Part shown: one piece after another, positions 9,999 through 25,480 of the stretch
Numbering within the stretch: position 1 is the first letter of the stretch
Layout of the letters: the number at the start of each line of letters is the position of its first letter
IMG/VR virus record: IMGVR_UViG_3300025687_000279
Coordinates: 1 to 26,094 of that record
Length of the DNA stretch: 26,094 nucleotides
Source of the DNA: a virus
Direction: 5' to 3' (one strand)
Position numbers and translations under genes: made by a program
Notes under the pieces: model-generated
Told to the model about the DNA's origin: nothing
What the model saw: only the letters and a program-made list of their open reading frames with translations
The model's database searches: none

Positions 9999-10385
9999 TT
10001 AGATATCTCTAAGTCTCTTGCCTACAAATACATCAACAGTGATATCTGAACTGTGTATATTCTTTCCTTTGATGCCTGATATTACATCTGGCATGTAGTT
10101 CAAAAAGAGTAAGAATGTCTTCAATATATCGTAGTCTTCTTTGTCCACTTTATAAAATAACATTCTTACTGAGTTTCTGGTTCCAAAGACATTGGAAAGA
10201 ATGATCATATGATTGAGTATCAATCTTTCTTTCAACTCTCCAGTAGTCCTGTATCTCTTTATCAATCTCTTCACATACTTTATTCGTTTTAGATCCTCTT
10301 CAAACTCACTCATTATAGCATTTGGAGAATCATAACATTTCATCGCATAGAGTAGAAAGTTTTCATCATTTAGATTTTCAATCAT
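9999..10385 (-). CDS. conserved T4-superfamily protein, 128 aa
   Basis: Helical, charged protein with the motifs ENFLLYAMKCYD, EEDLKRIKYVKRLIKRY and GELKERLILNHMIILSNVFG, which I recall as a conserved hypothetical family in T4-like marine and alphaproteobacterial phages (DUF7207-like). The role is unproven; its location is usually among virion genes. The start overlaps the stop of the 284-aa gene (TAATG), so the two are translationally coupled. No signal, membrane or catalytic motif is visible. Confidence 0.75.
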   Translation of the reverse strand: MIENLNDENFLLYAMKCYDSPNAIMSEFEEDLKRIKYVKRLIKRYRTTGELKERLILNHMIILSNVFGTRNSVRMLFYKVDKEDYDILKTFLLFLNYMPDVISGIKGKNIHSSDITVDVFVGKRLRDI

Positions 10386-11239
10386 TACTTCTTCTTGGAT
10401 GCTTTATCCGCTCTTTCGTATGTGCGTCCTTTTGCAGCACGACGAGCATTTAGTCTTGCAACTTCTTCGGTATCTTTGTTCTTTCTTGCTTCTATTGTTT
10501 TATCCCAAAGTTCATCATGATCAGCATAGACTTTATTTTTTAGTCTTTCCAATGTTTTCTTGTCTCTCTTCATTTTATGAAGTTCTTCTAGACGGTTGGA
10601 AAGAGTAGCTTTCTTTGCACTCATCTTTTTCTTTAGATCAGGCATAGGCATTTCATTCATTTGCTTAGGAGACTTATCTCCTTCTTCTTCAAAGTCTTCA
10701 GCTTCATCGTCATGTTTTACAGCTAACCTTTGATTGATCAGTCTGTATATCGTCTTGGATAAATGTGCTGCTGAATGTTGTTCATGTAAATCAGTTTCAT
10801 CATCTTCAACTTCTGCATCAAAGTCAGAGATAATTTCTTCCAATTCTTCATCATTGACAAGAGAAGTGAATACATCATAGCAGCCATTTTCATCAAGTGA
10901 CCATTCAAAGTAAATAAACATAGGAGAGTCGTTGGCGGTTACGACTTCTCCTTGATTGTTCATTCCTATCTTTTCGCCAAACTGTGATACTTCAAAAACA
11001 TCATAGCCATCGTTTTTGTCAAGAAAAACGCTGTTGGGTAAAAAGATTTTGTAATAAGATAAAACTTTCCTTACTTCTTCAAAAGCAATATATGGTGTTC
11101 TAAATGGTCTTGCTGTTGATGCTTCAAGATTTGCATTGATAGCATCAACCACTGTTTCATCGTCAATAGAGACTGCTCCGTCACTATTGTATATTGCTGG
11201 ATCAAAATCTTCTTTCAGGTATCTAGTAAATCTGTTCAT
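10385..11239 (-). CDS. putative internal head protein with capsid-targeting N-terminus, 284 aa
   Basis: Starts MNRFTRYLKED: aromatics at 4 and 7 and L-x-E at 8-10, the same pattern as T4 internal proteins (MKTYQEFIAE). The central part is acidic (EVEDDETDLHEQHSAAHLSK; DDEAEDFEEEGD). The C-terminal third switches to highly basic helices (MSAKKATLSNRLEELHKMKR, ending ERADKASKKK). An acidic body with a basic tail fits packaging with DNA in the head. No catalytic motif is seen. It is coupled to the 128-aa gene downstream. Confidence 0.65.
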   Translation of the reverse strand: MNRFTRYLKEDFDPAIYNSDGAVSIDDETVVDAINANLEASTARPFRTPYIAFEEVRKVLSYYKIFLPNSVFLDKNDGYDVFEVSQFGEKIGMNNQGEVVTANDSPMFIYFEWSLDENGCYDVFTSLVNDEELEEIISDFDAEVEDDETDLHEQHSAAHLSKTIYRLINQRLAVKHDDEAEDFEEEGDKSPKQMNEMPMPDLKKKMSAKKATLSNRLEELHKMKRDKKTLERLKNKVYADHDELWDKTIEARKNKDTEEVARLNARRAAKGRTYERADKASKKK

Positions 11240-12781: not shown

Positions 12782-15700
12782 TTACTTCCTTCTGCAACGC
12801 CAGCGTCTCAATGAAGCTGCTTTACGAGTTGGTCTACCCTTCTTGTCTTTCATTGGACCTGGCATTCCGCTCATTCTTGCACAGAATGATTTGCGTCTTG
12901 CTTTTCTTTTTGGTCCTGGATTTGGTTCTGTTACTGCTGTCTGAACACCAAACTTCTTTGCACCTTTTGCTGTTAGACCTGCGCCGCTTTCTGTTGATCT
13001 GTAAAGACCTTTTGAATCTGCACCGCGTTCATTTAGTTGCTGTTCTTGAACCGTCTTCATTGATCTGGATGTTGATATATTGTAATTTTTTCCACCCAAT
13101 TCTTTGTTTTTTCCTAAATCTTGAGATGTTATCTTCTCTTTATATGTCTGTGTGCCGCTTGGTGTTTTTTGTATAGATTTATTTACTATAGTTTCAGTAC
13201 CACGACTAAAAGGGTTTTTGGTCTTCTTTACATAAACTGAAGAATTGTAATTGCCGTTACTCTCACGACCGCCTTGATAGTTTACTGTAGGAACATTTAT
13301 CTCATTCACATCATCTTTGCGCTGAGTTGGAATTGGACTTAGATTATTGACACTACCTTCCATACCTTCACGCAGCTTCTTGATAGATTTCTTTTCACTG
13401 TGACTGCAACCACAACCAGCCTCTTCTAATCTCAAAGCAGCTTCAACAAGTTTTTCTTCCCAAAGATTGCCGTACTTATCTGCAAACTTCTGTTGTGTTC
13501 TTTCTGATTGCATCCAGCTTACGATACTCTCTGACAATCCCATAGAGTATGCGCTACCATATCCAAAACCGTATGGTGTGCCTGCTCTTGGTACACCTAT
13601 TGTTGGACCAATACCATCAGCACCAAAAACATAACCACCCTGTACAGATGCTTCCGAAGCTTCTTGACTTAGTTTCTTTTTCTTTTTTTGACCCGGTGTC
13701 ATACCACGATAAAGATTATCTAATGAATCTGTTGCAATTTGTCTTTCACTTGGCTTATTGCCGTTTGCTTCTGCGAACTTTTCAAAAGCTTCGTTAGCAG
13801 GAACGCAGTTAGGTACTTTACGGCCGTTCTTTTTCTTCATGCCGACCATCTCGTAGCCTTTCCAGCACGGATCGTTCTTCTTCATCTTCTTTTCTTCGTT
13901 CATTGTTTGAACCCTTACTAATTGACCACCCTTACTATGATACATGACTTTGTTTACACCACCAACTTTGCGACCAAAGCGACCAAATCCATAATATGAC
14001 AATCCAAGTCTTCTAGCCTGAAGCATTAGATCATTATCTGGTTTATGAACAACTTTTGGAACGCCTTGACGAATTTGTGTGAGACTCTTATATCTCTTTG
14101 GCTCTTGATATGTGATGCCGCGCTTCTTTGTTTCAGCTTCAATCCACTTTGCAGCGGTTGGGTTTTTGTTCTCAGCACGAACAAACTGTTGAGCCATACG
14201 ACGAACACGATTAAAGTTGGTAAGAACTTTTGCTTTTTCTTCTGGACCAACTTTACGAATATCTGCTGTGTTATCAATAACAGTAAACTTTTCATTACCA
14301 AATATCTTTTGAAGTTCACCGATATTCTTCTGTGCTAAATCCCACTTCTCTTGACGAATGTTAGGTGAGTTGTCTGGATTACCTTGCTTGTCAGTACCAT
14401 CTGGAACTTTACGCTTACCCATCTTACCGCGTTCAACATTACGCTCACGCGATACTTCATTGGATGTGTTTACGAATACCATCATAGTTTCGTAACCATC
14501 ACGTTCAAGTTCACCCTTGATCTTTTTTATTTTCTCTAGATCATCTGCGGTACCGTTGATGATTAGACCAAGACGACCTGCTAGTGCTAGACGCTCTTGT
14601 TCCTTTGTAATGTTCTTCGCACGACCACGAACAATGTCACGCTCAACTCTTTCTTCATCTGGCATTTCAAGGTCAAGGCCGTTCTTCTGCATTAGATATT
14701 CAAATGCAACATCGGAATTGATTTCTTTCAATCCTTCTCCTGCAAGAGTTGCATTCATCACATAGTCTTTACCTGATCCTGGACCACCAGCTAAGAAGAT
14801 AGCTTTAAGTTTGCCAGGATCGTTGATTCCCTCTTCTAGTCTCTGCCCTATGTTTGGATTTATATTAAGAGTTTTTATTTTTTTTTCTTTTCCGCCCATT
14901 CTCATTTTTATTGTGTCTGTTTTAGATCCAACATATCTGTTTGGATCGGATCTTTTATTGACCACAGGAGTGTTTGATCTAAATTTGTTAGGATCAGCAT
15001 TAGGTATTCTTGGTTCTGGATCTAAAGTTGCGCCAGGTCTTACAAAATGTTGACGAAATTCTTTATCTTGTCTCTTCGCTTCAAGATTTTTTGCGAGTTC
15101 TTGAGAAGCAGGAGATGCCATTGTAATTTCATTCAATTGTTCTTTGATTGTTTTTAAACTTTTCATTGCTCTGCCTTTATACTCTTTTTTGCCTTTATAG
15201 TCCATCCAAGAATTATCAATACCGTCATCAACCCAAAGTCCTGATGTGTTATTCTTTATTTGATTTGTATATGATTGATTGTTTAAAACATACTGAGATG
15301 TTACTGTAGGCGAAACTTCACCTGTCACATTACCTAGACCACGTATACCACTAACTGGTGCTAGTGCTGCTGAGTTTGTTGATTCTACAACATAACTCTT
15401 GCTGAACATATCTGGATTAGATTTAGCGAACCAACGCATGATCTTACCTGCTTCCGCATTTGCTTCGTTCTCAATGTCTGAACCTGTCTCACCTTCTTTT
15501 GCTATATCTTTACCGAGACGACCATCTTCATTCTGCTTGTGATGCACAAGTTCATGTGCAACAGAACGAAATATATCCATTGGATGACGATTTGCTGTAC
15601 ATATAGAAAGTTCATTTGATGAGGGATTGTATGCAGCAAATGAGTTGTAGTCATCATCATTTGTCTTGTATCTGACAGTAGGCATTGATTTGAGACCAAG

Positions 15701-16396
15701 CTTGTCAGAAGCAAATGATACAAATGAATCAAGCATAGGTGCTAGTTCTTTGCGAGTGACTTCTTCTTTTAACTGCTTTATTGTTTTAGGCTTCTTGAGC
15801 ATTGCACCAATCTTATCATTCATTAGCTTATGAACAGATGCATTATACTTGCCAAACAAGTCCTTGATGAAAGCTTTTTGCTTCTCATCATTCAAGGAAA
15901 CAAACTGCTTACGTAGTTCTGAGGCCGATGTTGCTGGTTTGCCTAATACATCAAACGTAAATGTAGGTGTGACAATGACATATCCTTTTGGCATCATTGT
16001 ATCGCCAAACGGCTTTAGCTTCTTTTCGTTGCCTTTGTATGGTTGAAGATAGCCTGGTTTGCCAGATTTAGTTGGCTTGAATGAAAATCTAGGGTCTTCT
16101 TCCATGTCTTTTTGCGACACAGCAAATACCAAAACCGTAGTCTTGGGATCGTACTGTCTGAGTATTTCTCTGGCTATGTAGGGATTTGTGACTTGTTGAA
16201 TATCACTAGATGGCACACCAGCCAACATCATCATTCGTTTCTTCTCGGCGAAGTTGAATGGACTTTTTGGTGCTTCTACTTTATCTGAAGTGGCAATGAC
16301 TGCATCGCCAAACTTGTTTTTTAACCACTGATAGACCTGAGCGTGACCCTTATGAAATGGTTGAAAGCGCCCAGGATAAACTGCTAAAATTTTCAT
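12782..16396 (-). CDS. 1204-residue multidomain cargo protein (nucleotidyltransferase, metallopeptidase, P-loop kinase, basic tail)
   Basis: Domains in order: 1-195 HxGH nucleotidyltransferase (GRFQPFHKGH 9-18; SASELR 157-162); 215-340 metallopeptidase-like (HELVH, H281/E282/H285, with a possible third ligand in ENEANAE 309-315); 530-740 P-loop kinase (GGPGSGKD 537-544; Arg-rich SRERNVERGK). Then a CWKGYEMVGMKKKNGRKVPN block (844-863), a SESIVSWMQSERTQQKFADK block (954-973) and a basic Cys-containing end (KSFCARMSGMPGPMKDKKGR, DUF6321-like). Motifs resembling the T4 capsid-targeting peptide with L-x-E recur at 203-211, 414-423 and 1113-1123. This suggests fused cargo modules, possibly released by the prohead protease. 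A hairpin (16402-16430) abuts its ribosome-binding site. Confidence 0.85.
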   Translation of the reverse strand: MKILAVYPGRFQPFHKGHAQVYQWLKNKFGDAVIATSDKVEAPKSPFNFAEKKRMMMLAGVPSSDIQQVTNPYIAREILRQYDPKTTVLVFAVSQKDMEEDPRFSFKPTKSGKPGYLQPYKGNEKKLKPFGDTMMPKGYVIVTPTFTFDVLGKPATSASELRKQFVSLNDEKQKAFIKDLFGKYNASVHKLMNDKIGAMLKKPKTIKQLKEEVTRKELAPMLDSFVSFASDKLGLKSMPTVRYKTNDDDYNSFAAYNPSSNELSICTANRHPMDIFRSVAHELVHHKQNEDGRLGKDIAKEGETGSDIENEANAEAGKIMRWFAKSNPDMFSKSYVVESTNSAALAPVSGIRGLGNVTGEVSPTVTSQYVLNNQSYTNQIKNNTSGLWVDDGIDNSWMDYKGKKEYKGRAMKSLKTIKEQLNEITMASPASQELAKNLEAKRQDKEFRQHFVRPGATLDPEPRIPNADPNKFRSNTPVVNKRSDPNRYVGSKTDTIKMRMGGKEKKIKTLNINPNIGQRLEEGINDPGKLKAIFLAGGPGSGKDYVMNATLAGEGLKEINSDVAFEYLMQKNGLDLEMPDEERVERDIVRGRAKNITKEQERLALAGRLGLIINGTADDLEKIKKIKGELERDGYETMMVFVNTSNEVSRERNVERGKMGKRKVPDGTDKQGNPDNSPNIRQEKWDLAQKNIGELQKIFGNEKFTVIDNTADIRKVGPEEKAKVLTNFNRVRRMAQQFVRAENKNPTAAKWIEAETKKRGITYQEPKRYKSLTQIRQGVPKVVHKPDNDLMLQARRLGLSYYGFGRFGRKVGGVNKVMYHSKGGQLVRVQTMNEEKKMKKNDPCWKGYEMVGMKKKNGRKVPNCVPANEAFEKFAEANGNKPSERQIATDSLDNLYRGMTPGQKKKKKLSQEASEASVQGGYVFGADGIGPTIGVPRAGTPYGFGYGSAYSMGLSESIVSWMQSERTQQKFADKYGNLWEEKLVEAALRLEEAGCGCSHSEKKSIKKLREGMEGSVNNLSPIPTQRKDDVNEINVPTVNYQGGRESNGNYNSSVYVKKTKNPFSRGTETIVNKSIQKTPSGTQTYKEKITSQDLGKNKELGGKNYNISTSRSMKTVQEQQLNERGADSKGLYRSTESGAGLTAKGAKKFGVQTAVTEPNPGPKRKARRKSFCARMSGMPGPMKDKKGRPTRKAASLRRWRCRRK

Positions 16397-16401: not shown

Positions 16402-16430
16402 CTCTACAGGAATGTTATTATCCTATAGAG
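16402..16430 (-). promoter_or_regulatory. hairpin abutting the start of the 1204-aa gene
   Basis: Minus strand CTCTATAGGA, 9-nt loop, TCCTGTAGAG: 10 bp with one G-U pair. The last bases of the 3' arm are part of the GAGGG ribosome-binding site for the ATG at 16394-16396. The 5' arm is the coding end of the HAD gene. A degenerate late-like box (ACTAAATA) overlaps its upstream edge. Confidence 0.5.
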
Positions 16431-17104
16431 TATTTAGTGTTCCTTACTGCTTCACGAACTACAGATTTGATCGTTTTGGACATTGACTTTGGTGTGTATC
16501 TAGACACACGACCATTTTTTACTAGATAACCAATAGCTTCTACATTAGGAAACATAGCTGCGACTTTGTATAGAATGTCAAGATTCTTTTCATGATCATC
16601 CCACATACGAACACGATCATACTTGCCAGTCTTTAGGTATCTCTTGAGAACAACACCCTTATTGATATGTGCTGGAGAGTCTGTTTTGAGTTTGGCCAGA
16701 TTACCAGAACGTTCAACGTATACATGGTCAATTGGAAATCCATGATCACGCCATGTCTGTAGAAACTCTTTGTGATCTTCAAAGTCTGCTCTTGCTGTCA
16801 GAATGATAGAATCAGAGTTCTCAGACTGATTCATTACAATGTCACGCGCACGATCTAGAACAGTGCTGATAGGCTTGAATGTATCACGAAACACTTTACC
16901 TGAACGAAACTGAGAGAACTCAAACTCTTCACCAGCTTTTAGCTTGTATGAATTGAACTTGCCTGGTTCAAGAACTTTGATGATCTTGCCATCTTTCATG
17001 ACACTTACTCTAGCATCTGTTTTGCCTAGGGTGTCATCAATGTCCCATACATTCAATGTTCTGACTTCATTCTTGTGTTTCTTCAAATATGACTTCAGTT
17101 TCAT
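16418..17104 (-). CDS. HAD-superfamily phosphatase (polynucleotide 3'-phosphatase-like)
   Basis: Haloacid-dehalogenase fold phosphohydrolase, 228 aa. Motif I is NVWDIDDTLG (nucleophile D21, general acid D23), motif II is SIILTARADF, and the acidic metal motif is RMWDDHEKNL. This set resembles the 3'-phosphatase half of phage polynucleotide kinase/phosphatase and related phage HAD proteins, so nucleic-acid end repair is plausible but unproven. The N-terminus MKLKSYLKKHKNE loosely recalls the targeting peptides of its neighbours but lacks Glu at 10. ATGA overlap with the upstream ADP-ribosyltransferase-like gene; the P-loop-kinase-containing gene follows. Confidence 0.8.
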   Translation of the reverse strand: MKLKSYLKKHKNEVRTLNVWDIDDTLGKTDARVSVMKDGKIIKVLEPGKFNSYKLKAGEEFEFSQFRSGKVFRDTFKPISTVLDRARDIVMNQSENSDSIILTARADFEDHKEFLQTWRDHGFPIDHVYVERSGNLAKLKTDSPAHINKGVVLKRYLKTGKYDRVRMWDDHEKNLDILYKVAAMFPNVEAIGYLVKNGRVSRYTPKSMSKTIKSVVREAVRNTKYSIG

Positions 17105-17604
17105 TTCTTAGCTGCTTTCGCTCTCTTCTTTACAAATCTTACAGCTTTGGCAAACTTGTCGTTCTTACCCTGTTTCATTAGATCATCATGCTCACCAGCT
17201 TCAACGGCTCTACGTAGTTCAGGATCTGCATCTATGTATCGGACAGTAGCATGCCATTCTTTGTGTGCTGTAATGTCTTTTGCAGGCACTTCATCTTTAC
17301 GAACAAATGGTGCTGAGTAATCGTCTTTGTCTACATGAAACTCTGCTGTTGGTGTACTATGTGCAGGTCCATAAAAACCTCTATTCTTACTATCAGGCGG
17401 TGAAGCATAGATTGCTTTTGGTCCTTCATAACCTTTAGCGTGTGATAGTTTAATTCCTTGCTTACGAATATTCGTCAGATTTTTTGCGCTTGTTTGATGA
17501 TATAGTTTTACTTTGCCTTCTGGTGCAGGAATAGAACCAGGTTCTGCTGGTACTTCCCAACGAGGGCGTTTCATTTCTGTGATGTATTGATTGAATGTTT
17601 TCAT
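17101..17604 (-). CDS. capsid-targeted ADP-ribosyltransferase-like protein
   Basis: Starts MKTFNQYITEM at 17602-17604, an almost exact copy of the T4 targeting peptide (I-x-E at 8-10); the ATG overlaps the upstream stop (ATGA). The body has KLYHQTSAKNLTNIRKQGIK, then AIYASPP and FYGPAH, and later EWHATVRYI. An H-x-T plus N-L-x-x-I-x-x-x-G-I layout occurs in ADP-ribosyltransferases of the DarT/Tpt1 type, which modify nucleic acid or proteins with NAD. T4 Alt, also a head-packaged and protease-trimmed protein, is an ADP-ribosyltransferase, which makes this reading attractive. Assignment by motif only. C-terminus very basic (KKRAKAAKK). 167 aa. Confidence 0.6.
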   Translation of the reverse strand: MKTFNQYITEMKRPRWEVPAEPGSIPAPEGKVKLYHQTSAKNLTNIRKQGIKLSHAKGYEGPKAIYASPPDSKNRGFYGPAHSTPTAEFHVDKDDYSAPFVRKDEVPAKDITAHKEWHATVRYIDADPELRRAVEAGEHDDLMKQGKNDKFAKAVRFVKKRAKAAKK

Positions 17605-18836
17605 TTGGACCATGCCTTTGCTGAATTGAAGTTTGCTTGTGAGAACTCTAGTCTATCTACAAGTTTTACAGCTTTGCCGATACGATCAATAGCAACAAAC
17701 CCTTCAGGAGCTGTTATCTTTAGTCCAGTTGCGTCTGTGCGTAGATATGTTCCAACACTGTCTTGGACCTGCTGTAGTTTCTTGACTATCATATTCTTAG
17801 CACGAACCAGCAAGTTTTGCAAGTCAAAAATCTTCTTTAGTTCATTCTTGTTTGACTTATAAAATTCCATCACAATCTTCTTTTCCATCTGGCGCTTTTG
17901 CTTTGTGTCAGCCTTCTTTGCTTCCAATATGGACTTGTTCATCTTCTCTTCCACTGTAGCAATAAGACCTGCAACATGTTGAGATGTGTTTGTGATTTCT
18001 TTTCCTTCGCGTACCTTTGTATTATTCCATGCTTTGATTGCAATTTTGTATGTGTCGTTTGTTGCGATAGTGTTCATTGTGCGTGGTGATATGGTACGAA
18101 ATAAAGTGCCTGCCTGTGACAGAATAGAATTGAGAGCATCAGTTTCTTGTTTCGTAAATGTAGCAGTGCCACTAGCATCAACAAATGAAGCATCACGATA
18201 CCAGACATTTCTTGATGGCTTCAAACCAGATATGTCTGCACCAAATGATGCTCTCATATCTGCCATCGTATTGCCATTGTATGTTGTATGCCATACGATA
18301 CCCATCTTTGCTGTGCGTATTGACTTTGCTAGATTACTATCTTCTGGGACAGCATAGACGATTGTGTTAGGCTGAAATGTCACATACTCTTTGCCTTCTA
18401 TTGTTTCATCTTTTAGATCAGCAGAAGTAAACATCATATCACCTTGCAGAACACCATCAATACCAAGTTCTGGCAAATACTGTAATGCGATCTTCAGCTT
18501 CTTGTTAAGTCCCTCACCTGGATGATTTGCATCAATATCTGCATTGGTATAATTAAGCTTTGCGTTCTGAGCAAACACACCTTTAGTACCAACAAAGAAC
18601 TTACCATTCTCTGGATTAATACCAGCAAAGATAGCAGGAGCGCCATCCCACTTCGTTGTTAGATTGACAGTTCTACCAGAAGCATGACCAGCAAGCATAT
18701 CACGAAGAGACTGTAGAAAGGATATTGCGCCTCTTGTGCCAGAAACGCCGCCATTGAGTACCTCGTCTTCTAGGTGTTCTAAATGAAGGTTCTTACCTTC
18801 TTTTGATTCTGTTAGGTAGTCTTGATATGGTATCAT
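17601..18836 (-). CDS. capsid-targeted ATP-dependent ligase-like protein (DUF6267-like)
   Basis: 411 aa. N-terminus MIPYQDYLTES has aromatics at 4 and 7 and L-x-E at 8-10, matching head-targeting peptides. The covalent nucleotidyltransferase signature KxDG is present as TTKWDGAPAIF (K62, D64, G65). A motif-III-like LQGDMMF (130-136), a motif-IV-like PEGFVAI (377-383) and a motif-V-like KAVKLV (388-393) follow in ligase order. The overall sequence resembles a T4-superfamily family I know as DUF6267, not biochemically characterised as far as I recall. Predicted to join or cap nucleic acid ends. TAATG overlap with the upstream gene and ATGA with the downstream gene. Confidence 0.7.
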   Translation of the reverse strand: MIPYQDYLTESKEGKNLHLEHLEDEVLNGGVSGTRGAISFLQSLRDMLAGHASGRTVNLTTKWDGAPAIFAGINPENGKFFVGTKGVFAQNAKLNYTNADIDANHPGEGLNKKLKIALQYLPELGIDGVLQGDMMFTSADLKDETIEGKEYVTFQPNTIVYAVPEDSNLAKSIRTAKMGIVWHTTYNGNTMADMRASFGADISGLKPSRNVWYRDASFVDASGTATFTKQETDALNSILSQAGTLFRTISPRTMNTIATNDTYKIAIKAWNNTKVREGKEITNTSQHVAGLIATVEEKMNKSILEAKKADTKQKRQMEKKIVMEFYKSNKNELKKIFDLQNLLVRAKNMIVKKLQQVQDSVGTYLRTDATGLKITAPEGFVAIDRIGKAVKLVDRLEFSQANFNSAKAWSK

Positions 18837-19852: not shown

Positions 19853-20296
19853 TTATGACTTCATTCCTGCTGTAGCGCGGAGCATCCAACCATGCTTCTT
19901 ATGGATGTCCATACGATCTTGTAAAAAGTTCGCAAGACCAAGTTCTTCGTTCTTTTCAGCAAGATCGTATGCTTGCTTTAAAGAGTCGAGAACAACCACA
20001 TTGTCATTAATCAATAACTGAAACATTCTTTCAGCAGTTGGAATAGTATCGGATTCTTTGATTCGGGTTAGTTCTTTTATTCTATCAAGAGAACTAGGAG
20101 CAAAAGAATCTACAGCACGAATCTGCTCTGCAATTGGATCTACTGCGCCATGTAGTTCTTCATACAATGCACCAAAGAATGCATGATACTCTGAGAAGTT
20201 TGGTCCAATAACATTCCAATGAAATGAATGTGTCTTCATGTACATTGTGAATGTATCAGCCAAAACGATCTTTAGCGCATTGTGTAGTTCTTCCAT
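19853..20296 (-). CDS. dps: Dps-family ferritin-like protein
   Basis: Dodecameric iron-storage and DNA-protecting protein that oxidises Fe(II) with peroxide. The ferroxidase signature is visible: H23/H26 in THSFHWNVIGPNF, and D53 and E57 in HGAVDPIAEQIRAVD, with the usual spacing. 147 aa, slightly short, without the long Lys-rich N-terminal tail some Dps use for DNA binding. It has its own signals: a TATAAATA late box (20322-20329), an AGGAG ribosome-binding site and a terminator. It may protect phage or host DNA against oxidative damage, or be packaged. A dps gene in a phage is uncommon. Confidence 0.92.
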   Translation of the reverse strand: MEELHNALKIVLADTFTMYMKTHSFHWNVIGPNFSEYHAFFGALYEELHGAVDPIAEQIRAVDSFAPSSLDRIKELTRIKESDTIPTAERMFQLLINDNVVVLDSLKQAYDLAEKNEELGLANFLQDRMDIHKKHGWMLRATAGMKS

Positions 20297-20321: not shown

Positions 20322-20329
20322 TATTTATA
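20322..20329 (-). promoter_or_regulatory. T4-type late promoter TATAAATA for dps
   Basis: Exact T4 late consensus TATAAATA on the minus strand, about 26 bases upstream of the dps ATG and abutting the 3' CCA of the tRNA-Ser gene. Confidence 0.55.
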
Positions 20330-20420
20330 TGGCGGAAGGAGTGGGATTCGAACCCACGGTACCTGATTAGGGTACGCCTCGTTAGCAGTGAGGTGCCTTC
20401 GGCCTCTCGGCCATCCTTCC
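20330..20420 (-). tRNA. tRNA-Ser(GCT)
   Basis: 91 nt with encoded CCA, discriminator G, and a long variable arm as expected for serine. Anticodon loop CTGCTAA; T-loop TTCGAAT. The last tRNA of the array in transcription order. Confidence 0.95.
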
Positions 20421-20424
20421 TATA

Positions 20425-20874
20425 TTATTCTGTAATCTCTATATATGTATTATACTTGCCGTATTCGTTTACGATGCGGTACAACCAACGAGCATTCTGA
20501 GGGCTAAGACGAATACATCCATGTGATGCGGGTTGACCAAGCTTCTTTACTTCTGTTGTCGCATGAATTGCATAACCACCATGAAAGAAGATAGAATGAG
20601 GCATCGGCGCATTATTATATTTGGATGAATAGTGCATCGGCCTTAACAGATAAGGCTGAAACACACCAGTCGGAGTACGATATCCCTTACGACCGGTAGA
20701 AACGTCCCACTCAAAATAGTCAGTAGGTGTTTCTACATACATCTTCTGATCGGACTTGTCAATCCGAATAATCACTTCATGCTCACCAAGCGGCTCAACA
20801 CCAGCTTTAGCACCGTTAACAAGCATAAAGATTGCAGCAGTCATCACTGTCAACATAACAAAAAACTTAGTCAT
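20425..20874 (-). CDS. secreted L,D-transpeptidase (YkuD family)
   Basis: Periplasmic enzyme that forms or ex-changes 3-3 peptidoglycan crosslinks or attaches proteins to the wall. A signal peptide is clear: MTKF plus a hydrophobic stretch FVMLTVMTAAIFMLVNG and a predicted cut after AKA (residue 24). The catalytic signature is complete: H104 in YAIHAT, then S117-H118-G119-C120-I-R122 with nucleophile C120. 149 aa, a single-domain form. It lies in the tRNA array, not in the lysis cluster. It could modify the wall during infection, for example to delay lysis or exclude other phages; that role is inference. Confidence 0.9.
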   Translation of the reverse strand: MTKFFVMLTVMTAAIFMLVNGAKAGVEPLGEHEVIIRIDKSDQKMYVETPTDYFEWDVSTGRKGYRTPTGVFQPYLLRPMHYSSKYNNAPMPHSIFFHGGYAIHATTEVKKLGQPASHGCIRLSPQNARWLYRIVNEYGKYNTYIEITE

Positions 20875-20875
20875 T

Positions 20876-21373
20876 TTATCCTACCTTCACTTGTGGAATA
20901 TGTTGAATTGCGTCCTTGTACCTGTCAGCACAGTAAGATGCTGCCCAAGCATTTGGCTTCACTAGAGGTACCACATTACACATACCACGAATGTAACCAA
21001 CAGCTTCATTTATAACACAAGATGAACCGTGTTTCAAGTCAGGATTGATGTCCAGATGAATTTCAAAGTCACGTTCGCCAATTGCTTCCTCAAGGTCGAG
21101 GTACAACTGCGCTGTCTTCATCACTTCATTCATCAGACGCATACGTGGCTTGTCCTTCTGCTGATCATAGTCACGCTCACGCATAACGGAACCAAACACA
21201 CGACAGCCGTTCTTGCCGTTCTTATGAACAACGACAACGTTGATGTAGTCAGCCATCCAAACGCCATTCAACTGAAAGCGTTCTGAGTCGCCACCTAGAT
21301 ATACTTTTGTTTCCTTAGATTGTGCTTGAATGAATGCACGAACTTCGTCTAAATCCATATTCTTTCTAATCAT
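20876..21373 (-). CDS. RNase H-like protein of the YkuK family
   Basis: The sequence shows GGDSER near residue 27-32, a central VVVHKNG, the acidic EIHLDINPD block and a C-terminal KPNAWAASYCAD. This is the pattern of the uncharacterised YkuK/DUF458 RNase H-fold family, so a nuclease acting on RNA is plausible, but activity is unproven. 165 aa. The start is ambiguous: the ATG at 21371-21373 overlaps the end of the YspA-like gene, while the ATG at 21356-21358 is better spaced from AGAAAG. The stop is one base from the L,D-transpeptidase ATG side of the junction. Confidence 0.82.
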   Translation of the reverse strand: MIRKNMDLDEVRAFIQAQSKETKVYLGGDSERFQLNGVWMADYINVVVVHKNGKNGCRVFGSVMRERDYDQQKDKPRMRLMNEVMKTAQLYLDLEEAIGERDFEIHLDINPDLKHGSSCVINEAVGYIRGMCNVVPLVKPNAWAASYCADRYKDAIQHIPQVKVG

Positions 21374-21707
21374 TTATTTTCACAACTGGGATACCAGCTG
21401 ACTCCGCTAAGTTAATCATCATTTGAGTGCCTTTACCACCTGGAAAAGCTATTACCAAATCTGGTTTGCCTTCATTCAACATTTGCACATTGCGAATGTA
21501 TCCTGCTCTTTTACCATATTTATTCCAATCAGCAGGATAATTCTTGAACTCAATACCATTGTCAACTGCCCAGATTTTGGCCAGATCGTCTGCTCCTCTA
21601 GCAGAACCTTGAATGATGATATTGTCTTTTGAAGCATAAGGCTGGAGTGCCTTATTAAGGAGGGCTCTGTTATTGAAGTCACGGCCGCCGCATACTAGAA
21701 TACGCAT
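21366..21707 (-). CDS. YspA-like SLOG-family protein (DUF2493)
   Basis: Rossmann-like nucleotide-sensing domain: MRILVCGGRDFNNRALLNKA, then IIQGSARGADDLAKIWAV and VIAFPGGKGTQMMI. These are the three conserved blocks of the cpYpsA/YspA SLOG family, which bind nucleotide-derived ligands and often accompany defence or NAD/ADP-ribose metabolism. 113 aa, typical length. The ribosome-binding site and ATG lie in a 17-base sequence (ATAGGAACTTAACAATG) that recurs on the opposite strand at 25729-25745. It overlaps the YkuK-like gene. Confidence 0.85.
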   Translation of the reverse strand: MRILVCGGRDFNNRALLNKALQPYASKDNIIIQGSARGADDLAKIWAVDNGIEFKNYPADWNKYGKRAGYIRNVQMLNEGKPDLVIAFPGGKGTQMMINLAESAGIPVVKIND

Positions 21708-21723
21708 TGTTAAGTTCCTATAA

Positions 21724-21797
21724 TGGTGCCTCTATCCAGAATCGAACTGGAGCCAATCCCCTACCAAAGGATTGTTCTACCACTATACTATAGAGGC
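21724..21797 (-). tRNA. tRNA-Thr(GGT)
   Basis: 74 nt, encoded CCA, acceptor GCCTCTA/TAGAGGC, anticodon loop TTGGTAG, T-loop TTCGATT. Confidence 0.93.
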
Positions 21798-21803
21798 AGT
21801 GAT

Positions 21804-21888
21804 TGGTGCGGGTAGAGAGACTTGAACTCCCATGGATTACTCCGCTGGAACCTAAATCCAGTGCGTCTGCCAATTTCGCCATACCCGC
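21804..21888 (-). tRNA. tRNA-Leu(TAG)
   Basis: 85 nt with class II variable arm and encoded CCA. Acceptor GCGGGTA/TACCCGC, anticodon loop TTTAGGT, T-loop TTCAAGT. Confidence 0.93.
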
Positions 21889-21893
21889 ATTAA

Positions 21894-21968
21894 TGGTAGC
21901 CGCTGAGAGAATCGAACTCCCTACACCCTCGGTGTAAACGAGGTGTTCTACCAGTGAACTAAGCGGCT
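21894..21968 (-). tRNA. tRNA-Val(TAC)
   Basis: 75 nt, acceptor AGCCGCT/AGCGGCT, A73, encoded CCA, anticodon loop TTTACAC. Its 5' end overlaps the last codons of the heme oxygenase gene by 10 bases. Confidence 0.93.
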
Positions 21969-22456
21969 TTGATTTCGTTCATGATGTTTAGAAGGGCTTG
22001 AAAACAGTTTCTGGCTTCTACAATCACATCTTCGCGCTCTCTAAACTTTGTTAATTCTACTATTGCTGCTTTTCTATCTGACCATTCAAGATGACTGGTA
22101 GGATAGCCAACAAGTCTTCTACGCATTACTTCACCGCCCATCAAATGGGCACCTGTCAATACATAAGCTGAGCCAACGATATCTTTTTCCGTATTCAGTC
22201 TATTTACATAATCGTTAGCTGTGCGGATTATATTAACAGGACAGTTTGTATCTGTTAAGTCTTTTTGAACTTGTTCCGATCTGCGAATGATTTCTGGAAT
22301 GTGCTGATCTACAGTCCAGTGAATTGTGTACAAAGCAGAAAGCCAGTCTGCATACCATTGCATTGGTGGTTTTCCAGATGCCATAGCAGCACCTACTGGA
22401 TGTTCCTCACAAGCATGATGCAAGTCTCTTGTGCCTTCCCATAATGGTCCTGGCAT
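21959..22456 (-). CDS. heme oxygenase-like protein
   Basis: Predicted to open heme to biliverdin, releasing Fe(II) and CO. The proximal-His region is GTRDLHHACEEHP (H13 as ligand in the T-x3-H pattern). The flexible distal-helix glycines appear in GSAYVLTGAHLMGGEVMRRR. 165 aa, all-helical as expected. Heme oxygenases are known in marine cyanophages for pigment synthesis; in a presumed alphaproteobacterial phage, iron release or a bilin signal is more likely. AGGAG precedes the ATG. The stop codon (TAG) lies inside the tRNA-Val gene, so tRNA processing would cut the mRNA at its very end. Confidence 0.85.
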   Translation of the reverse strand: MPGPLWEGTRDLHHACEEHPVGAAMASGKPPMQWYADWLSALYTIHWTVDQHIPEIIRRSEQVQKDLTDTNCPVNIIRTANDYVNRLNTEKDIVGSAYVLTGAHLMGGEVMRRRLVGYPTSHLEWSDRKAAIVELTKFREREDVIVEARNCFQALLNIMNEIKAA

Positions 22457-22473
22457 ATTATCTCCTATAAAAC

Positions 22474-22567
22474 TGGAGGCCCGTTAGCTTGTCATGCAGC
22501 CTACTGGTTTGGAAACCAGCATCTGAACGACTTACCCCTCTAAAGGACTTCTATACCGCTACGGGCC
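22474..22567 (-). tRNA. aberrant tRNA-like gene A (no canonical T-loop)
   Basis: 94 nt with a perfect 7-bp acceptor (GGCCCGT/ACGGGCC), U73 and encoded CCA. The interior is odd: a 5-bp stem CTGGT/ACCAG closes a 6-nt loop TTCCAA, resembling a Gly(TCC) or Trp anticodon arm that has lost one base. A canonical TTC T-loop is missing; the equivalent place holds GCATGACA in an imperfect stem. It may be a decayed tRNA or a distinct tRNA-like RNA. Identity not assigned. Confidence 0.45.
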
Positions 22568-22583
22568 AAGAGCGGTTTCTAAA

Positions 22584-22757
22584 TTACATACCAGACATTA
22601 ATGATGTGATAGAATCAGAAATCCAGAGCCACCATGCTGCAAGTGCTGCTACGATAGCTGCTCCACCTTTCTTCATGTCCCAGCCGTTCTGCCACATTGT
22701 CCATAGAACCCAAAGCACGGCTGCAATCAAAACTAAAACTACGATTGTGTTTAGCAT
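22584..22757 (-). CDS. small two-helix membrane protein, 57 aa
   Basis: Start at 22755-22757 (MLNTIVVLVLIAAVLWVLWT) because GAGGT is seven bases upstream; an in-frame ATG 33 bases further out has no ribosome-binding site. Two hydrophobic helices (residues about 3-22 and 33-50, GAAIVAALAAWWLWI) are joined by a short polar loop (WQNGWDMKKG). It could be a holin-like or superinfection-exclusion protein; neither is supported by a motif. A CATAAATA late box lies at 22795-22802. It sits between tRNA-Gly and the aberrant tRNA-like gene. Confidence 0.7.
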   Translation of the reverse strand: MLNTIVVLVLIAAVLWVLWTMWQNGWDMKKGGAAIVAALAAWWLWISDSITSLMSGM

Positions 22758-22794
22758 TTGTATTACCTCATTTAGACCTTGATTGGTCAATGAG

Positions 22795-22802
22795 TATTTA
22801 TG
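22795..22802 (-). promoter_or_regulatory. T4-like late promoter box CATAAATA
   Basis: Minus-strand CATAAATA between the tRNA-Gly CCA end and the small membrane protein, about 37 bases upstream of its ATG. Confidence 0.4.
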
Positions 22803-22804
22803 AT

Positions 22805-22878
22805 TGGAGCGGGTAGCGGGAATCGAACCCGCGCATTCTCGTTGGCAACGAGATAAGCTACCATTACATCATACCCGC
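22805..22878 (-). tRNA. tRNA-Gly(GCC)
   Basis: 74 nt, acceptor GCGGGTA/TACCCGC, U73 as usual for Gly, encoded CCA, anticodon loop TTGCCAA, T-loop TTCGATT. Confidence 0.95.
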
Positions 22879-22881
22879 AAT

Positions 22882-22957
22882 TGGTGCGTCTTCCAAGTTT
22901 CGAACTGGGTTGTTCGGCTTATGAGACCGATGAGATTGCCAACACCTCCCAAGACGC
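22882..22957 (-). tRNA. tRNA-Met(CAT), elongator or Ile2
   Basis: 76 nt, acceptor GCGTCTT/AAGACGC, A73, CCA, anticodon loop CTCATAA. The G1-C72 pair and lack of GGG/CCC in the anticodon stem exclude a normal initiator. A lysidine-modified Ile2 cannot be excluded. Confidence 0.9.
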
Positions 22958-22962
22958 ATTAA

Positions 22963-23038
22963 TGGTGCTGCCTCTCTGAATCGAACAGAGTCCCCACGCT
23001 CTTCAGGCGCATGTACGCACCAGCTATACCAAGGCAGC
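22963..23038 (-). tRNA. tRNA-Phe(GAA)
   Basis: 76 nt, acceptor GCTGCCT/AGGCAGC, A73, encoded CCA, anticodon loop CTGAAGA, T-loop TTCGATT. Confidence 0.95.
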
Positions 23039-23044
23039 GTTTAT

Positions 23045-23191
23045 TCAATCACGAAGCAACTGAGGAGCTGATTCCGTCAAGTTCTTCTTTTCGTATTCTT
23101 GTAGTTTAGCAGAGTATTGTTCGTTTGACAACCCATGCCAACCAATACACTTACCAGTTGGACTACGACCACAACCACAATCTTTAGACAT
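23045..23191 (-). CDS. CDGSH-like mini-protein, 48 aa
   Basis: Short gene between tRNA-Ser(TGA) and tRNA-Phe, starting at 23189-23191 with GAGGA upstream. The N-terminus MSKDCGCGRSPTGKCIGWHG has three Cys and one His (C5, C7, C15, H19) in an order close to the CDGSH [2Fe-2S] motif C-x-C-x2-S-x3-P-x-C-D-G-S-H, one residue shorter. The rest is a charged helix (NEQYSAKLQEYEKKNL). It may bind an iron-sulfur cluster or zinc. I have seen CGCGRSPTG-xC-xGWH in short alphaproteobacterial and phage proteins, but know no function. Confidence 0.65.
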   Translation of the reverse strand: MSKDCGCGRSPTGKCIGWHGLSNEQYSAKLQEYEKKNLTESAPQLLRD

Positions 23192-23207
23192 TTGCTTTCC
23201 TCTTGTT

Positions 23208-23295
23208 TGGCGGATAGGGTAGGATTCGAACCCACGGAACCGTTAAGTTCTTCGGTTTTCAAGACCGATGCGATAGACCACTCTGCCACCTATCC
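23208..23295 (-). tRNA. tRNA-Ser(TGA)
   Basis: 88 nt, long variable arm, G73, encoded CCA, anticodon loop CTTGAAA, T-loop TTCGAAT. Confidence 0.95.
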
Positions 23296-23333
23296 AAATT
23301 CGCTCCGATTTCTTAAAGTGGTTACGGCCTCCA

Positions 23334-23362
23334 CTATTATGTTAACGAGAGTTTCCAGTCAA
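23334..23362 (-). promoter_or_regulatory. candidate promoter TTGACT-17-TAATAG
   Basis: Minus-strand TTGACT (23357-23362), 17 bp, TAATAG (23334-23339), 39 bases upstream of tRNA-Ser(TGA). Weaker -10 than its neighbour at 23429-23457. Confidence 0.4.
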
Positions 23363-23428
23363 GTACAGTCCACTCACAAACCTCTAGCTGCGGGATGGCG
23401 GAACGCATTACTTGCCGCCACGATGTAT

Positions 23429-23457
23429 ATATTAGACTGTATCCCACATATTGTCAA
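23429..23457 (-). promoter_or_regulatory. sigma70-type promoter TTGACA-17-TAATAT
   Basis: Minus-strand TTGACA (23452-23457), 17 bp, TAATAT (23429-23434), directly after the RlpA-like stop codon. It should re-initiate transcription of the distal part of the tRNA array. The leader contains a GGCGG/CCGCC hairpin. Confidence 0.65.
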
Positions 23458-23459
23458 GT

Positions 23460-23822
23460 CTATCTTTTCTTCTTCTTTCCTAAGATTTCAACCTTGACTG
23501 TGCAAACTCCACCGCAGCCGATCTTTCTAGCGGCTGCTCTTGATAGGTCTAATTGTCTACCCTTGATGAACGGGCCCCTATCATTAATTACTACTATTAC
23601 CGATCTTCCTTTGTGTGTAACTCTCAGTCTTGTGCCAAAAGGCAATGTCTTGTGTGCTGCTGTTAAAGCATTTGGATTGAATTTTTGCCCGCTTGCAGTA
23701 ATCTTGCTTTTACTACATTCGCCAGGCTTGACGCAATCATACCAAGATGCTACCATTGTTGTAGCATTACTGGGTGCTGTCATTAAAAAAAGGACAGCAA
23801 AGGCTGCTATTAATAGTTTCAT
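23460..23822 (-). CDS. RlpA-like secreted double-psi beta-barrel protein
   Basis: 120 aa from the ATG at 23820-23822, preceded by AAGGAAAA. The signal peptide MKLLIAAFAVLFLMTAPSNA is followed by a domain with ASWYD, SGQKFNPNALTAAHKTLPFG, RVTHKGRSVIVVINDRGPF and the catalytic-type Asp in QLDLSRAAARKIG. These match RlpA/DPBB lytic transglycosylases acting on denuded glycan. Extra Cys pairs (CVKPGEC; CGGVC) could form disulfides in the periplasm. No lipobox, so soluble. Together with the L,D-transpeptidase it is the second exported wall enzyme in the tRNA array. Confidence 0.88.
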   Translation of the reverse strand: MKLLIAAFAVLFLMTAPSNATTMVASWYDCVKPGECSKSKITASGQKFNPNALTAAHKTLPFGTRLRVTHKGRSVIVVINDRGPFIKGRQLDLSRAAARKIGCGGVCTVKVEILGKKKKR

Positions 23823-23838
23823 TGTTGTTTTCCTTGTA

Positions 23839-23932
23839 TGGAGCATCTGACAGGATTCGAACCTGCATTAGGTACTTCTACCCATGTCCAGTTACCTTAC
23901 TCTCCGTTCGTAGCGGAGGGGGCTACAGATGC
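23839..23932 (-). tRNA. aberrant tRNA-Arg(ACG)-like gene B (no D-arm in usual place)
   Basis: 94 nt with perfect acceptor GCATCTG/CAGATGC, U73, CCA and a normal T-arm (TTCGAAT). A perfect anticodon arm CTCCG-CTACGAA-CGGAG gives anticodon ACG, but only 7 bases separate it from the acceptor, so there is no room for a D-arm. Instead 35 bases follow the anticodon arm, including D-arm-like text GGTAACTGG...TACC. It is the only arginine candidate in the array. Confidence 0.5.
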
Positions 23933-23938
23933 ATAGTT

Positions 23939-24013
23939 TGGAGGGGCCAACCAGATTTGAACTGGTACCTCAAGGATTTGCAGTCCCGCGCATTACCGTT
24001 TTGCTATGGCCCC
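23939..24013 (-). tRNA. tRNA-Cys(GCA)
   Basis: 75 nt, acceptor GGGGCCA/TGGCCCC, U73 as usual for Cys, CCA, anticodon loop CTGCAAA. Confidence 0.95.
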
Positions 24014-24018
24014 ATAAA

Positions 24019-24092
24019 TGGCTGCCCAGCATGGATTCGAACCACGATAGCCAGAGTCAGAATCTGGCGTCCTACCGTTAGACGACCGGGCA
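24019..24092 (-). tRNA. tRNA-Gln(CTG)
   Basis: 74 nt, acceptor TGCCCGG/CTGGGCA with U1-A72 and G73 as expected for Gln, CCA, anticodon loop TTCTGAC. Confidence 0.94.
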
Positions 24093-24097
24093 ATAAT

Positions 24098-24172
24098 TGG
24101 TACTGCATGGGGGAATCGAACCACCGTAACAGGTTTCACAGACCTGCGTCTTAGCCACTAGACTAATGCAGC
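24098..24172 (-). tRNA. tRNA-His(GTG), alphaproteobacterial form
   Basis: 75 nt, anticodon loop CTGTGAA. The discriminator is A73, base pair 1-72 is G-U, and the base before G1 is T, so there is no encoded G-1 opposite C73. This departs from most bacteria and matches the unusual histidine tRNA known from alphaproteobacteria. Confidence 0.94.
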
Positions 24173-24173
24173 A

Positions 24174-24251
24174 TGGAAGCGGGAGCAGGATTCGAACCTG
24201 CGACCTCTAGGATATGAACCTAGCAAGCTGACCTGACTGCTCTATCCCGCA
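24174..24251 (-). tRNA. initiator-like tRNA-Met(CAT)
   Basis: 78 nt. D-arm (AGAGCAG...AGCT) and variable loop (AGGTC) resemble initiator tRNA, and 1-72 is an unpaired U-U, the hallmark that blocks EF-Tu and marks initiators. However, the anticodon stem CTAGG/CCTAG lacks the full three G-C pairs, and position 73 is U. CCA encoded. Only one base separates it from tRNA-His. Confidence 0.8.
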
Positions 24252-24256
24252 ATATT

Positions 24257-24331
24257 TGGCAGCGCATAAGGGAATTGAACCCTTCTCTCCGGATTGAAAG
24301 CCCAGCATTCTGACCACTAAACTAATGCGCC
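24257..24331 (-). tRNA. tRNA-Glu(TTC)
   Basis: 75 nt, acceptor GGCGCAT/ATGCGCT (G1-U72), G73, CCA, anticodon loop CTTTCAA. Confidence 0.94.
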
Positions 24332-24336
24332 ATAAT

Positions 24337-24420
24337 TGGAGGACTGGGTGGGACTCGAACCCACGGTGTTTGCATAGCGGATTAAAAGTCCGCGCCGTTC
24401 GCCACTACGGTAACCAGTCC
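24337..24420 (-). tRNA. tRNA-Lys(TTT) with 12-nt variable region
   Basis: 84 nt, acceptor GGACTGG/CCAGTCC, U73, CCA. Anticodon stem GCGGA/TCCGC with loop CTTTTAA. The variable region is about 12 bases, far longer than the normal 5 for lysine tRNA, and U73 is not the usual lysine discriminator. Confidence 0.88.
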
Positions 24421-24473
24421 GTCTTTGTGTAGTGCGGCTTCATCTATGGACTATATGCTATGCAAGCACGAAT

Positions 24474-24547
24474 TGGCTGGGGAACGTGGATTCGAACCAC
24501 GACCGGAAGTTTCAAAGACTTCTATCCTACCTTTAGATGATTCCCCA
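24474..24547 (-). tRNA. tRNA-Gln(TTG)
   Basis: 74 nt, acceptor TGGGGAA/TTCCCCA (U1-A72), G73, CCA, anticodon loop CTTTGAA. The 53 bases to its left (24421-24473) hold nothing recognisable. Confidence 0.95.
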
Positions 24548-24554
24548 ATAAACA

Positions 24555-24654
24555 GGTGCGAGGAGAAGGATTCGAACCTTCATGGTGCCTGCGTGAGTTC
24601 ACGCTTTACGGCTACCCTCCTGCCGGATGCTTTTACCAGTTTCGCCATCCTCGC
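24555..24654 (-). tRNA. aberrant tRNA-like gene C (Leu-like ends, no clear anticodon)
   Basis: Perfect acceptor GCGAGGA/TCCTCGC, A73, a leucine-type D-arm (GGCGAAACTGGTAAAAGC) and a normal T-arm GAAGG-TTCGAAT-CCTTC. The encoded 3' end is ACCT, not CCA. Between D- and T-arms lie 46 bases with stems CGGC/GCCG closing a 9-nt loop AGGAGGGTA, and GCGTG/CACGC closing AACT. No loop has the required pyrimidine-T before an anticodon. Either a decayed or interrupted tRNA-Leu, or a tRNA-mimic RNA. Confidence 0.45.
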
Positions 24655-24657
24655 AAT

Positions 24658-24731
24658 TGGTTGGCCAGTAGGGAATCGAACCCTCATCGGACGCCTATCA
24701 AGCGCCTGCTTTACCATTAAGCTACAAGCCA
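24658..24731 (-). tRNA. tRNA-Ile(GAT)
   Basis: 74 nt, CCA encoded, A73, anticodon loop TTGATAG, T-loop TTCGATT. The acceptor stem has one U-U mismatch (6-67). The next 101 bases (24732-24832) contain a hairpin ACCGCC/GGCGGT and an AGAC-tatat-GTCT hairpin, but no gene I can name. Confidence 0.9.
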
Positions 24732-24832
24732 GTGAATTGTGAACCGTTTCGCTGGTCCCACTGAAAGGACGATCAACCCCGACAGACATATAGTCTCGGA
24801 CTTATATACCGCCACGGCCTACGGCGGTTACT

Positions 24833-24915
24833 TGGTGGGCAGGTGTGGTTACGCTCCACTCCCCTATGGACGGGTTTTACAGACCCGCTGCTGAAACTAC
24901 CAGCTTTACCTACCC
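24833..24915 (-). tRNA. tRNA-Tyr(GTA) with atypical T-loop
   Basis: 83 nt, acceptor GGGTAGG/CCTGCCC, A73, CCA. Perfect anticodon arm CGGGT-CTGTAAA-ACCCG. The T-stem GTGG/CCAC closes the loop AGCGTAA, lacking the universal TTC; the D-loop also lacks a clear GG pair in the usual setting. Amino-acid identity is clear, but tertiary D-T contacts would be abnormal. Confidence 0.8.
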
Positions 24916-24921
24916 GTTGTA

Positions 24922-24995
24922 TGGTGCCGCATGAGAGAATCGAACTCCCATCAGAGGATTACAAAGCCCCTGTATTGCCATTATACTAATGCGGC
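24922..24995 (-). tRNA. tRNA-Thr(TGT)
   Basis: 74 nt, acceptor GCCGCAT/ATGCGGC, A73, CCA, anticodon loop TTTGTAA (one mismatch closing the loop), T-loop TTCGATT. Confidence 0.92.
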
Positions 24996-25000
24996 GTTAT

Positions 25001-25075
25001 TGGTGGACCCTAAGAGAATCGAACTCTTACTTTCGCCGTGCAAAGGCGACATGCTCCCATTATCATCAAGGGCCC
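25001..25075 (-). tRNA. tRNA-Ala(TGC)
   Basis: 75 nt, acceptor GGGCCCT/AGGGTCC. The 3-70 pair is G-U, the alanine identity element. A73, CCA, anticodon loop TTTGCAC. Confidence 0.94.
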
Positions 25076-25080
25076 GTTAT

Positions 25081-25154
25081 TGGCACCAGTGCAAGGATTC
25101 GAACCCTGACAAGCAGTTTTGGAGGCTGCCGTGCTACCGTTACACTACACTGAT
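25081..25154 (-). tRNA. tRNA-Trp(CCA)
   Basis: 74 nt, acceptor ATCAGTG/CACTGGT, G73 as expected for Trp, CCA, anticodon loop CTCCAAA. Confidence 0.94.
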
Positions 25155-25160
25155 TTGAAT

Positions 25161-25237
25161 TGGTCCGGGCGGAAGGATTTGAACCCTCGACCCTCCGCTC
25201 CCAAAGCGGATGCTCTACCAGACTGAGCCACACCCGG
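25161..25237 (-). tRNA. tRNA-Pro(TGG)
   Basis: 77 nt, acceptor CCGGGTG/CGCCCGG (C1-G72), A73, CCA, anticodon loop TTTGGGA, T-loop TTCAAAT. Confidence 0.95.
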
Positions 25238-25308
25238 ATAACGGCTTTCGTACTGCGAGGGTGCCGTCAACCCTACCCAACTTCCCAAAGCGGGACAGGC
25301 GTACTAAA
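25238..25308 (-). other. spacer with tRNA-Pro-like relic
   Basis: 71-nt gap. It shares the 11-mer CCGCTTTGGGA with the adjacent tRNA-Pro anticodon arm and AAGTTGGGTA with the leader at 25606-25615. An ACGGC/GCCGT stem is possible. No complete tRNA fold, so perhaps a decayed tRNA. Confidence 0.3.
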
Positions 25309-25382
25309 TGGCGACCTATGCGAGGCTCAAACTCGCTTCTCCGCTTAGACAGAGCGGTGTGATATCCATTCACTAATAGGCC
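25309..25382 (-). tRNA. tRNA-Asp(GTC)
   Basis: 74 nt, acceptor GGCCTAT/ATAGGTC, G73, CCA, anticodon loop CTGTCTA. T-loop TTTGAGC has T in place of C56. Confidence 0.92.
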
Positions 25383-25387
25383 ATGAT

Positions 25388-25474: not shown

Positions 25475-25480
25475 ATGAAT

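Follow-up and report, generated by a model that had tools for sequence, protein, structure and literature searches.

Head-packaged ADP-ribosyltransferases (ARTs) are known from Alt of phage T4 and have been predicted for many other phages; surveys have found ARTs to be frequent in virions, many of them with genes adjacent to those for packaging (PMC9503650, PMC5512222). The internal proteins IPI-IPIII of T4 carry a ten-residue capsid-targeting sequence (CTS), in which residues 4 and 7 mainly govern targeting and residues 8 and 10 processing (PMC9026906). We analyzed a 26,094-nucleotide stretch of viral DNA (positions 1 to 26,094 of IMG/VR record IMGVR_UViG_3300025687_000279; hereafter the window), whose minus strand encodes, at 17101-17604, a protein of 167 amino acids (aa), designated P0001, which combines a putative CTS with a predicted ART fold. 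This protein is probably a head-packaged, injected ART of a marine T4-like phage, acting on a host macromolecule. The general idea of virion ARTs is known; new are the family, which is widespread yet undescribed in the libraries searched, the form of it that bears a tag, and its occurrence in three different delivery routes.

P0001 would share with Alt the character of an ART in a T4-like head, together with trimming of its N-terminus by the prohead protease and injection, both predicted. Alt, however, is an Alt/VIP2-type enzyme of 682 aa with an R-S-E motif and a MELITE start, whereas P0001 has H-x-T...Y and a CTS of the internal-protein type. The two show no sequence similarity (best blastp E-value 5), in agreement with the original prediction, which had been made from the nucleotide sequence and its open reading frames (ORFs) and had presented the protein as an unrelated analog of Alt. 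By analogy, P0001 would work like Alt, through packaging, trimming and injection, but it is not an Alt homolog. With the internal proteins it has in common the ten-residue tag (aromatic residues at 4 and 7, an aliphatic residue at 8 and Glu10, as in IPII and IPIII), but its cargo, an ART-fold domain, is unrelated to them.

The P0001 gene and its predicted fold

The gene starts with an ATG at position 17604 and ends with a TGA at 17101-17103. The N-terminus of the protein reads MKTFNQYITEMKRPRWEVP, and KLYHQTSAKNLTNIRKQGIK and AIYASPP are found further along; together with MKTFNQYITE, all peptides quoted in the original prediction are present in the translation, and its coordinates were correct, the minus strand being added here. 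An in-frame ATG at 17613 is a less likely start, as it lies approximately 1 nt from AAAGG and the relatives begin with MKTF. The gene shares ATGA overlaps with both of its neighbors and is part of a translationally coupled operon. Three scans of viral metagenome contigs yielded about 35 distinct relatives, with identity down to approximately 30%. Against relatives of 73-87% identity, nonsynonymous divergence (dN) was 0.09-0.20 and synonymous divergence (dS) 0.9-2.1, and the dN/dS ratio against close relatives was about 0.04-0.14. Because dN is far below dS and the family comprises so many loci at such distances, the ORF is real, rather than a chance reading frame, and is under strong purifying selection. 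No cellular relatives were found in two scans of cellular genome contigs, and tblastn gave no match to the family in 50,697 records of isolate phages; family members beyond P0001 likewise matched nothing among isolate phages or plasmids. Used as a single query, P0001 gave nothing useful in Pfam, PHROGs, NCBIfam, PDB and INPHARED.

An AlphaFold2 (AF2) model of residues 15-167, computed with 30 family sequences, had a mean predicted local distance difference test score (pLDDT) of 91.6 and a predicted TM score of 0.84, and superseded a poor first model built from 8 sequences (pLDDT 67). The predicted ART core (residues 28-118; 17251-17523, minus strand) is composed of strand beta1 (LYHQT), helix alpha1, an IYA strand, a TAEFHV strand and FV...VPAKDI. 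Its best VIA-align match was the NAD lobe of Tpt1 (1wfx, residues 88-182; Z 5.8, root-mean-square deviation 3.6, 80 residues); further matches were TreX (Z 5.4), TreTu (4.8), PARP10 (4.6), PARP15 (4.4), DarT1 (3.9) and PARP14, and the 50 matches listed comprised ART-superfamily proteins only. Foldseek placed Tpt1/KptA on top among solved structures (E-values 0.2-0.9), and among the viral models of BFVD phage proteins, one of them named PARP-like, matched at probability 1.00. Over all comparisons, the structural neighbors of the model were nearly all ARTs. Since the matches are uniform in kind, and in view of the HxT motif described below, P0001 is assigned a predicted ART fold despite moderate Z scores. 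The fold prediction suggested as a check in the original prediction (AF2, Foldseek, VIA-align and BFVD) thus returned the fold expected there.

Residues identical in all 30 sequences are H36, T38, G50, P62, E88, F89, V106, H114, W117 and R122. His36 (17497-17499; this and the following positions on the minus strand), which forms the HxT motif with Thr38, is a predicted contact of the NAD ribose; the HGT motif of Tpt1 holds the adenosine ribose of NAD, its His and Thr contacting the 2'-OH (PMC6333775). Tyr66 (17407-17409), the second residue of the H-Y-x motif, is Tyr in 27 and Trp in 3 of the sequences. H36 on strand 1 and Y66 on strand 2 fit the H-Y-x type of the ART superfamily. Glu88 (17341-17343), located by DSSP of the model in the TAEFHV strand, is a candidate catalytic acid. 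The last ART strand is followed by H-x2-WH-x3-R (His114-Arg122; 17239-17265), a hallmark of the family, in which H118 is kept in 29 of 30 sequences and the other named residues in all.

Among known ARTs, Tpt1/KptA resembles P0001 in the fold match of its NAD lobe, the HxT motif, the strand order and the VP-x2-I ending. P0001 differs in having no N-terminal RNA lobe, which in Tpt1 bears the Arg-His-Arg part of the tetrad (PMC6333775), and in its extra C-terminal helices with H-x2-WH-x3-R; just 33 residues, 10 of them the tag, precede LYHQT, and the match begins at residue 88 of the Tpt1 chain. DarT1/DarT2 (DUF4433) are alike in a weak profile link and an LYHxT..N...I..G start, but the DarT family PF14487 matched neither P0001 nor any other part of the window, and no macro or NADAR partner was seen. 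The PADLOC DarT profile weakly matched 3 of 30 members (best E-value 0.0012), and a search with the family profile gave weak hits to DarT1 (8baq, E-value 0.47) and KptA (9ld4, E-value 1.2). Of the DarT/Tpt1-type layout recognized in the original prediction, the resemblance in fold and HxT motif stands, whereas membership of either family does not. ART-PolyVal domains (PF18760) are also virion-delivered ART modules and occur side by side with the P0001-type domain in two related loci (L010 and L033), but their ending, DG...V.F.P.QIKS, is absent from it, and PF18760 was not listed for any of the 30 family members at E-values up to 10.

Little weight was given to a profile-profile comparison, in which small ART-like phage proteins that resemble KptA or are annotated as such reached 94.5% probability, KptA 43%, ART-PolyVal 17%, DarT1 15% (poorly trimmed rows) and DarT2 9.5%; in the first such comparison, 1 of 120 column shuffles scored absurdly high, apparently an artifact of the program. 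Weak Pfam matches to DUF7002, PARP and others (best E-values 0.01-0.3) were not relied upon.

The capsid-targeting tag and proposed routes into the virion

The N-terminal tag MKTFNQYITE (17575-17604, minus strand) carries Phe4, Tyr7, Ile8 and Glu10, i.e., all four published CTS determinants, and T4 IPII and IPIII begin with MKTYQEFIAE (read from AF158101). A gp21-type prohead protease is predicted to cut after Glu10 (ITE↓M). The pattern of aromatic residues at 4 and 7, an aliphatic residue at 8 and Glu at 10 occurs at 4 of the 31 N-termini of likely genes of the window (MKTFKQFILE, 7455-8168; MNRFTRYLKE, 10385-11239; P0001, 17101-17604; and MIPYQDYLTE, 17601-18836; all minus strand) vs. 1 of 6,472 internal 10-mers (Fisher p 2e-9, a somewhat generous value because the pattern was defined after the tags had been seen; a looser pattern gave p 6e-7). 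The isolate relatives of the neighborhood, the Methylophilales phage Melnitz and phage C48C1, both encode a gp21-type protease and gp23, and similar tags are found at N-termini of their proteins (LINFSKYITE, MQGFKTFLSE, MMLDFKNFITE and MLSFKQFVSE). The published determinants, the T4 proteins and the gene context of the relatives argue that MKTFNQYITE is a T4-type CTS, and the head-targeting peptide of the original prediction is borne out by these determinants, the IPII/IPIII match and the T4-like contigs encoding gp21 and gp23.

Among close tagged relatives, the last three tag positions are occupied by Leu, Ile or Met, then by any residue and finally by Glu, and MKKPRW or a similar sequence comes next. 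The junction [LIM]xE↓[ML]K[KR]P[RK][WY] is conserved across the tagged relatives, including L006 and L027, in which a different N-terminal segment of approximately 75-140 residues precedes the kept junction (NLSE↓MKKPRY or NIKE↓MKKPKW). This is the expected appearance of a retained prohead protease site, at which cleavage may take place. The tag of the tagged relatives matches that of other cargo genes of the same phage; in locus L008, for example, three genes begin with MISFKNFL, one with MISFRNFL, and one has MISFKNFL a few residues in.

The family falls into two groups. One consists of single-domain tagged proteins, whose genes are flanked by those for the small and large terminase (L006, L017 and L026), precede the large terminase gene (L027), are placed between the genes for gp23 and the tail tube (L018), or lie downstream of both gp21 and gp23 (L044). 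In the other group the domain is embedded in large virion proteins: it is fused to a portal protein (L020; PF06381, E-value 9e-83), carried on a Mu-type portal with a zeta-toxin domain (L035), or present in proteins with separate ART-PolyVal domains (L010 and L033) or with LPD38 (L009). The portal and polyvalent fusions appear to be separate routes into the virion for the same domain. Delivery labels switch several times on the family tree (4-5 changes by parsimony, at least 2 of them forced by well-supported branches).

A row of genes mostly starting with MISFKNFLxE was observed at positions 2553-6420 of L008. It includes a P0001-family ART, two proteins with ART-like motifs (WMYHG...GAHFAADPE) and a ParB-like protein, and ends in an untagged ART-PolyVal protein (PF18760, E-value 1e-15), having the appearance of an island of packaged effectors. 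In L021, L035 (a portal fusion) and L041, a recurring linker like HPRGQPENAGEFAKGG, NENHDELGRFAES or PRDPKGRPTGGQFSR lies directly before the ART domain and is possibly a further head-cargo or processing signal.

Proposed role and competing explanations

According to the proposed mechanism, a T4-like phage would make P0001 late, alongside its head proteins; the tag would bring the protein into the prohead core, and a gp21-type prohead protease would cut it after Glu10. The mature enzyme of 157 aa would remain in the capsid, enter the host with the DNA, bind NAD via the HxT motif and Tyr66, and, ahead of all phage gene expression, attach a single ADP-ribose to a host macromolecule, most likely one that serves in gene expression or in defense. 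Family membership aside, the overall reading of the original prediction appears right in substance, given the head tag and the predicted ART fold.

Several points weigh against this role. The structural Z scores are below 6, in the range where the tool warns of a merely common arrangement. The canonical third acidic residue is not obvious: the strand before VPxxI reads A/S-P-F-V and is non-acidic, and the invariant Glu88 seems, from sequence and DSSP order, to lie one strand earlier than the usual acid. E88 and the H-x2-WH-x3-R helix are candidates for the missing chemistry. Furthermore, the gene sits among tagged genes, away from any head cluster, and no gene for gp21, gp23 or terminase is present in the window, which covers 26 kb of an uncultured phage.

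A packaged P0001 could modify nucleic acid, as do DarT, Tpt1-like and some Rhs ARTs, and could, for example, render host RNA inactive or disturb host DNA. The nearest folds (the Tpt1 NAD lobe and the small Tre toxins), the weak sequence links to DarT (PADLOC DarT and 8baq) and KptA (9ld4) and the basic C-terminal helix KKRAKAAKK speak for this possibility, which we nevertheless find somewhat doubtful: P0001 has no DarT family score and no RNA lobe, no DarG or NADAR partner was seen adjoining its gene, and similarity of fold does not fix the substrate. The elusive third acidic residue, together with the H-x2-WH-x3-R motif, which was not found in the ARTs compared with P0001, would also suit an ART-fold NAD glycohydrolase or a binder of NAD or ADP-ribose, serving, e.g., in counter-defense against NAD-based immunity, an early task in keeping with packaging. 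Such a protein is unlikely, since HxT, Tyr and the invariant Glu are conserved over very diverse contexts, which favors catalysis, and the surveys predicted transferase activity for virion ARTs (PMC9503650, PMC5512222).

Two further explanations dispense with either catalysis or packaging. Being small, basic and tagged like the T4 internal proteins, P0001 might have the ART fold without catalysis and serve in the head as a structural protein or in association with the scaffold; the clustering of conservation at the expected NAD site and the fact that unrelated phages carry the same domain in portal and polyvalent proteins make this quite improbable. Hardly more credible, and indeed a shade less so, is an unpackaged intracellular ART or KptA-like tRNA-repair enzyme whose N-terminus is similar to the tag by chance: the operon does lie near an array of 23 tRNA genes, but the enrichment of the tag, the retained [LIM]xE junctions, the relatives in head-gene contexts and the missing RNA lobe are all at odds with it.

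If P0001 is a packaged and injected ART, as we favor, it is a small enzyme whose clear test residues (H36, Y66, E88, H114 and R122) would help to identify what these phages modify as infection begins. With a simple N-terminal tag, packaging would become predictable from sequence, and inventories of injected effectors could be drawn up for marine T4-like phages, genome by genome. A broader reading, to which we give somewhat less than an even chance, is that P0001 represents a new ART family invisible among isolates, with (i) a catalytic arrangement peculiar to it (HxT, Tyr, a Glu on an atypical strand and H-x2-WH-x3-R), (ii) transfer of the domain among three delivery systems (capsid-targeting tag, portal fusion and polyvalent protein), and (iii) islands such as that of L008, which would make the tag a general effector secretion signal. 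In that case, several diverged tagged ARTs would form an island in phages like L008, and the effector set would be exchangeable.

Neighboring genes of the window

The gene upstream of P0001 (17601-18836, minus strand) encodes a DUF6267 protein (PF19782, E-value 6e-113), the one tagged with MIPYQDYLTE, whose closest isolate homologs occur in Kyanoviridae. Taken with the head genes of close relatives and the tag itself, the relatives of this protein suggest a T4-like phage as the source of the DNA. Downstream, overlapping the P0001 gene by ATGA, lies a gene for a polynucleotide-kinase-like protein (phrog_415; 16418-17104, minus strand).

A possible T4-type late promoter, TATAAATA (20322-20329, minus strand), precedes the operon at a distance of 26 bases from the gene that starts at 20296; it is present in a single copy, with 1.3 expected by chance in the window, and is only suggestive. 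A search of Rfam near the operon revealed no family besides a tRNA. The 23 tRNA genes occupy approximately 5.2 kb (20330-25557, minus strand) and cover most amino acids, a repertoire unusually complete for a phage. An L,D-transpeptidase-like protein (20425-20874) and a Dps/ferritin-like protein (19853-20296), both named from motifs only, are encoded on the minus strand just upstream. A protein of 1,204 aa (12782-16396, minus strand) contains a nucleotidyltransferase-like domain, a zincin-like HELVHH motif, a zeta-toxin/AAA kinase domain and DUF6321; it resembles a polyvalent head polyprotein, and the prohead protease could act on its LxE sites, EQLNE↓I being one example.
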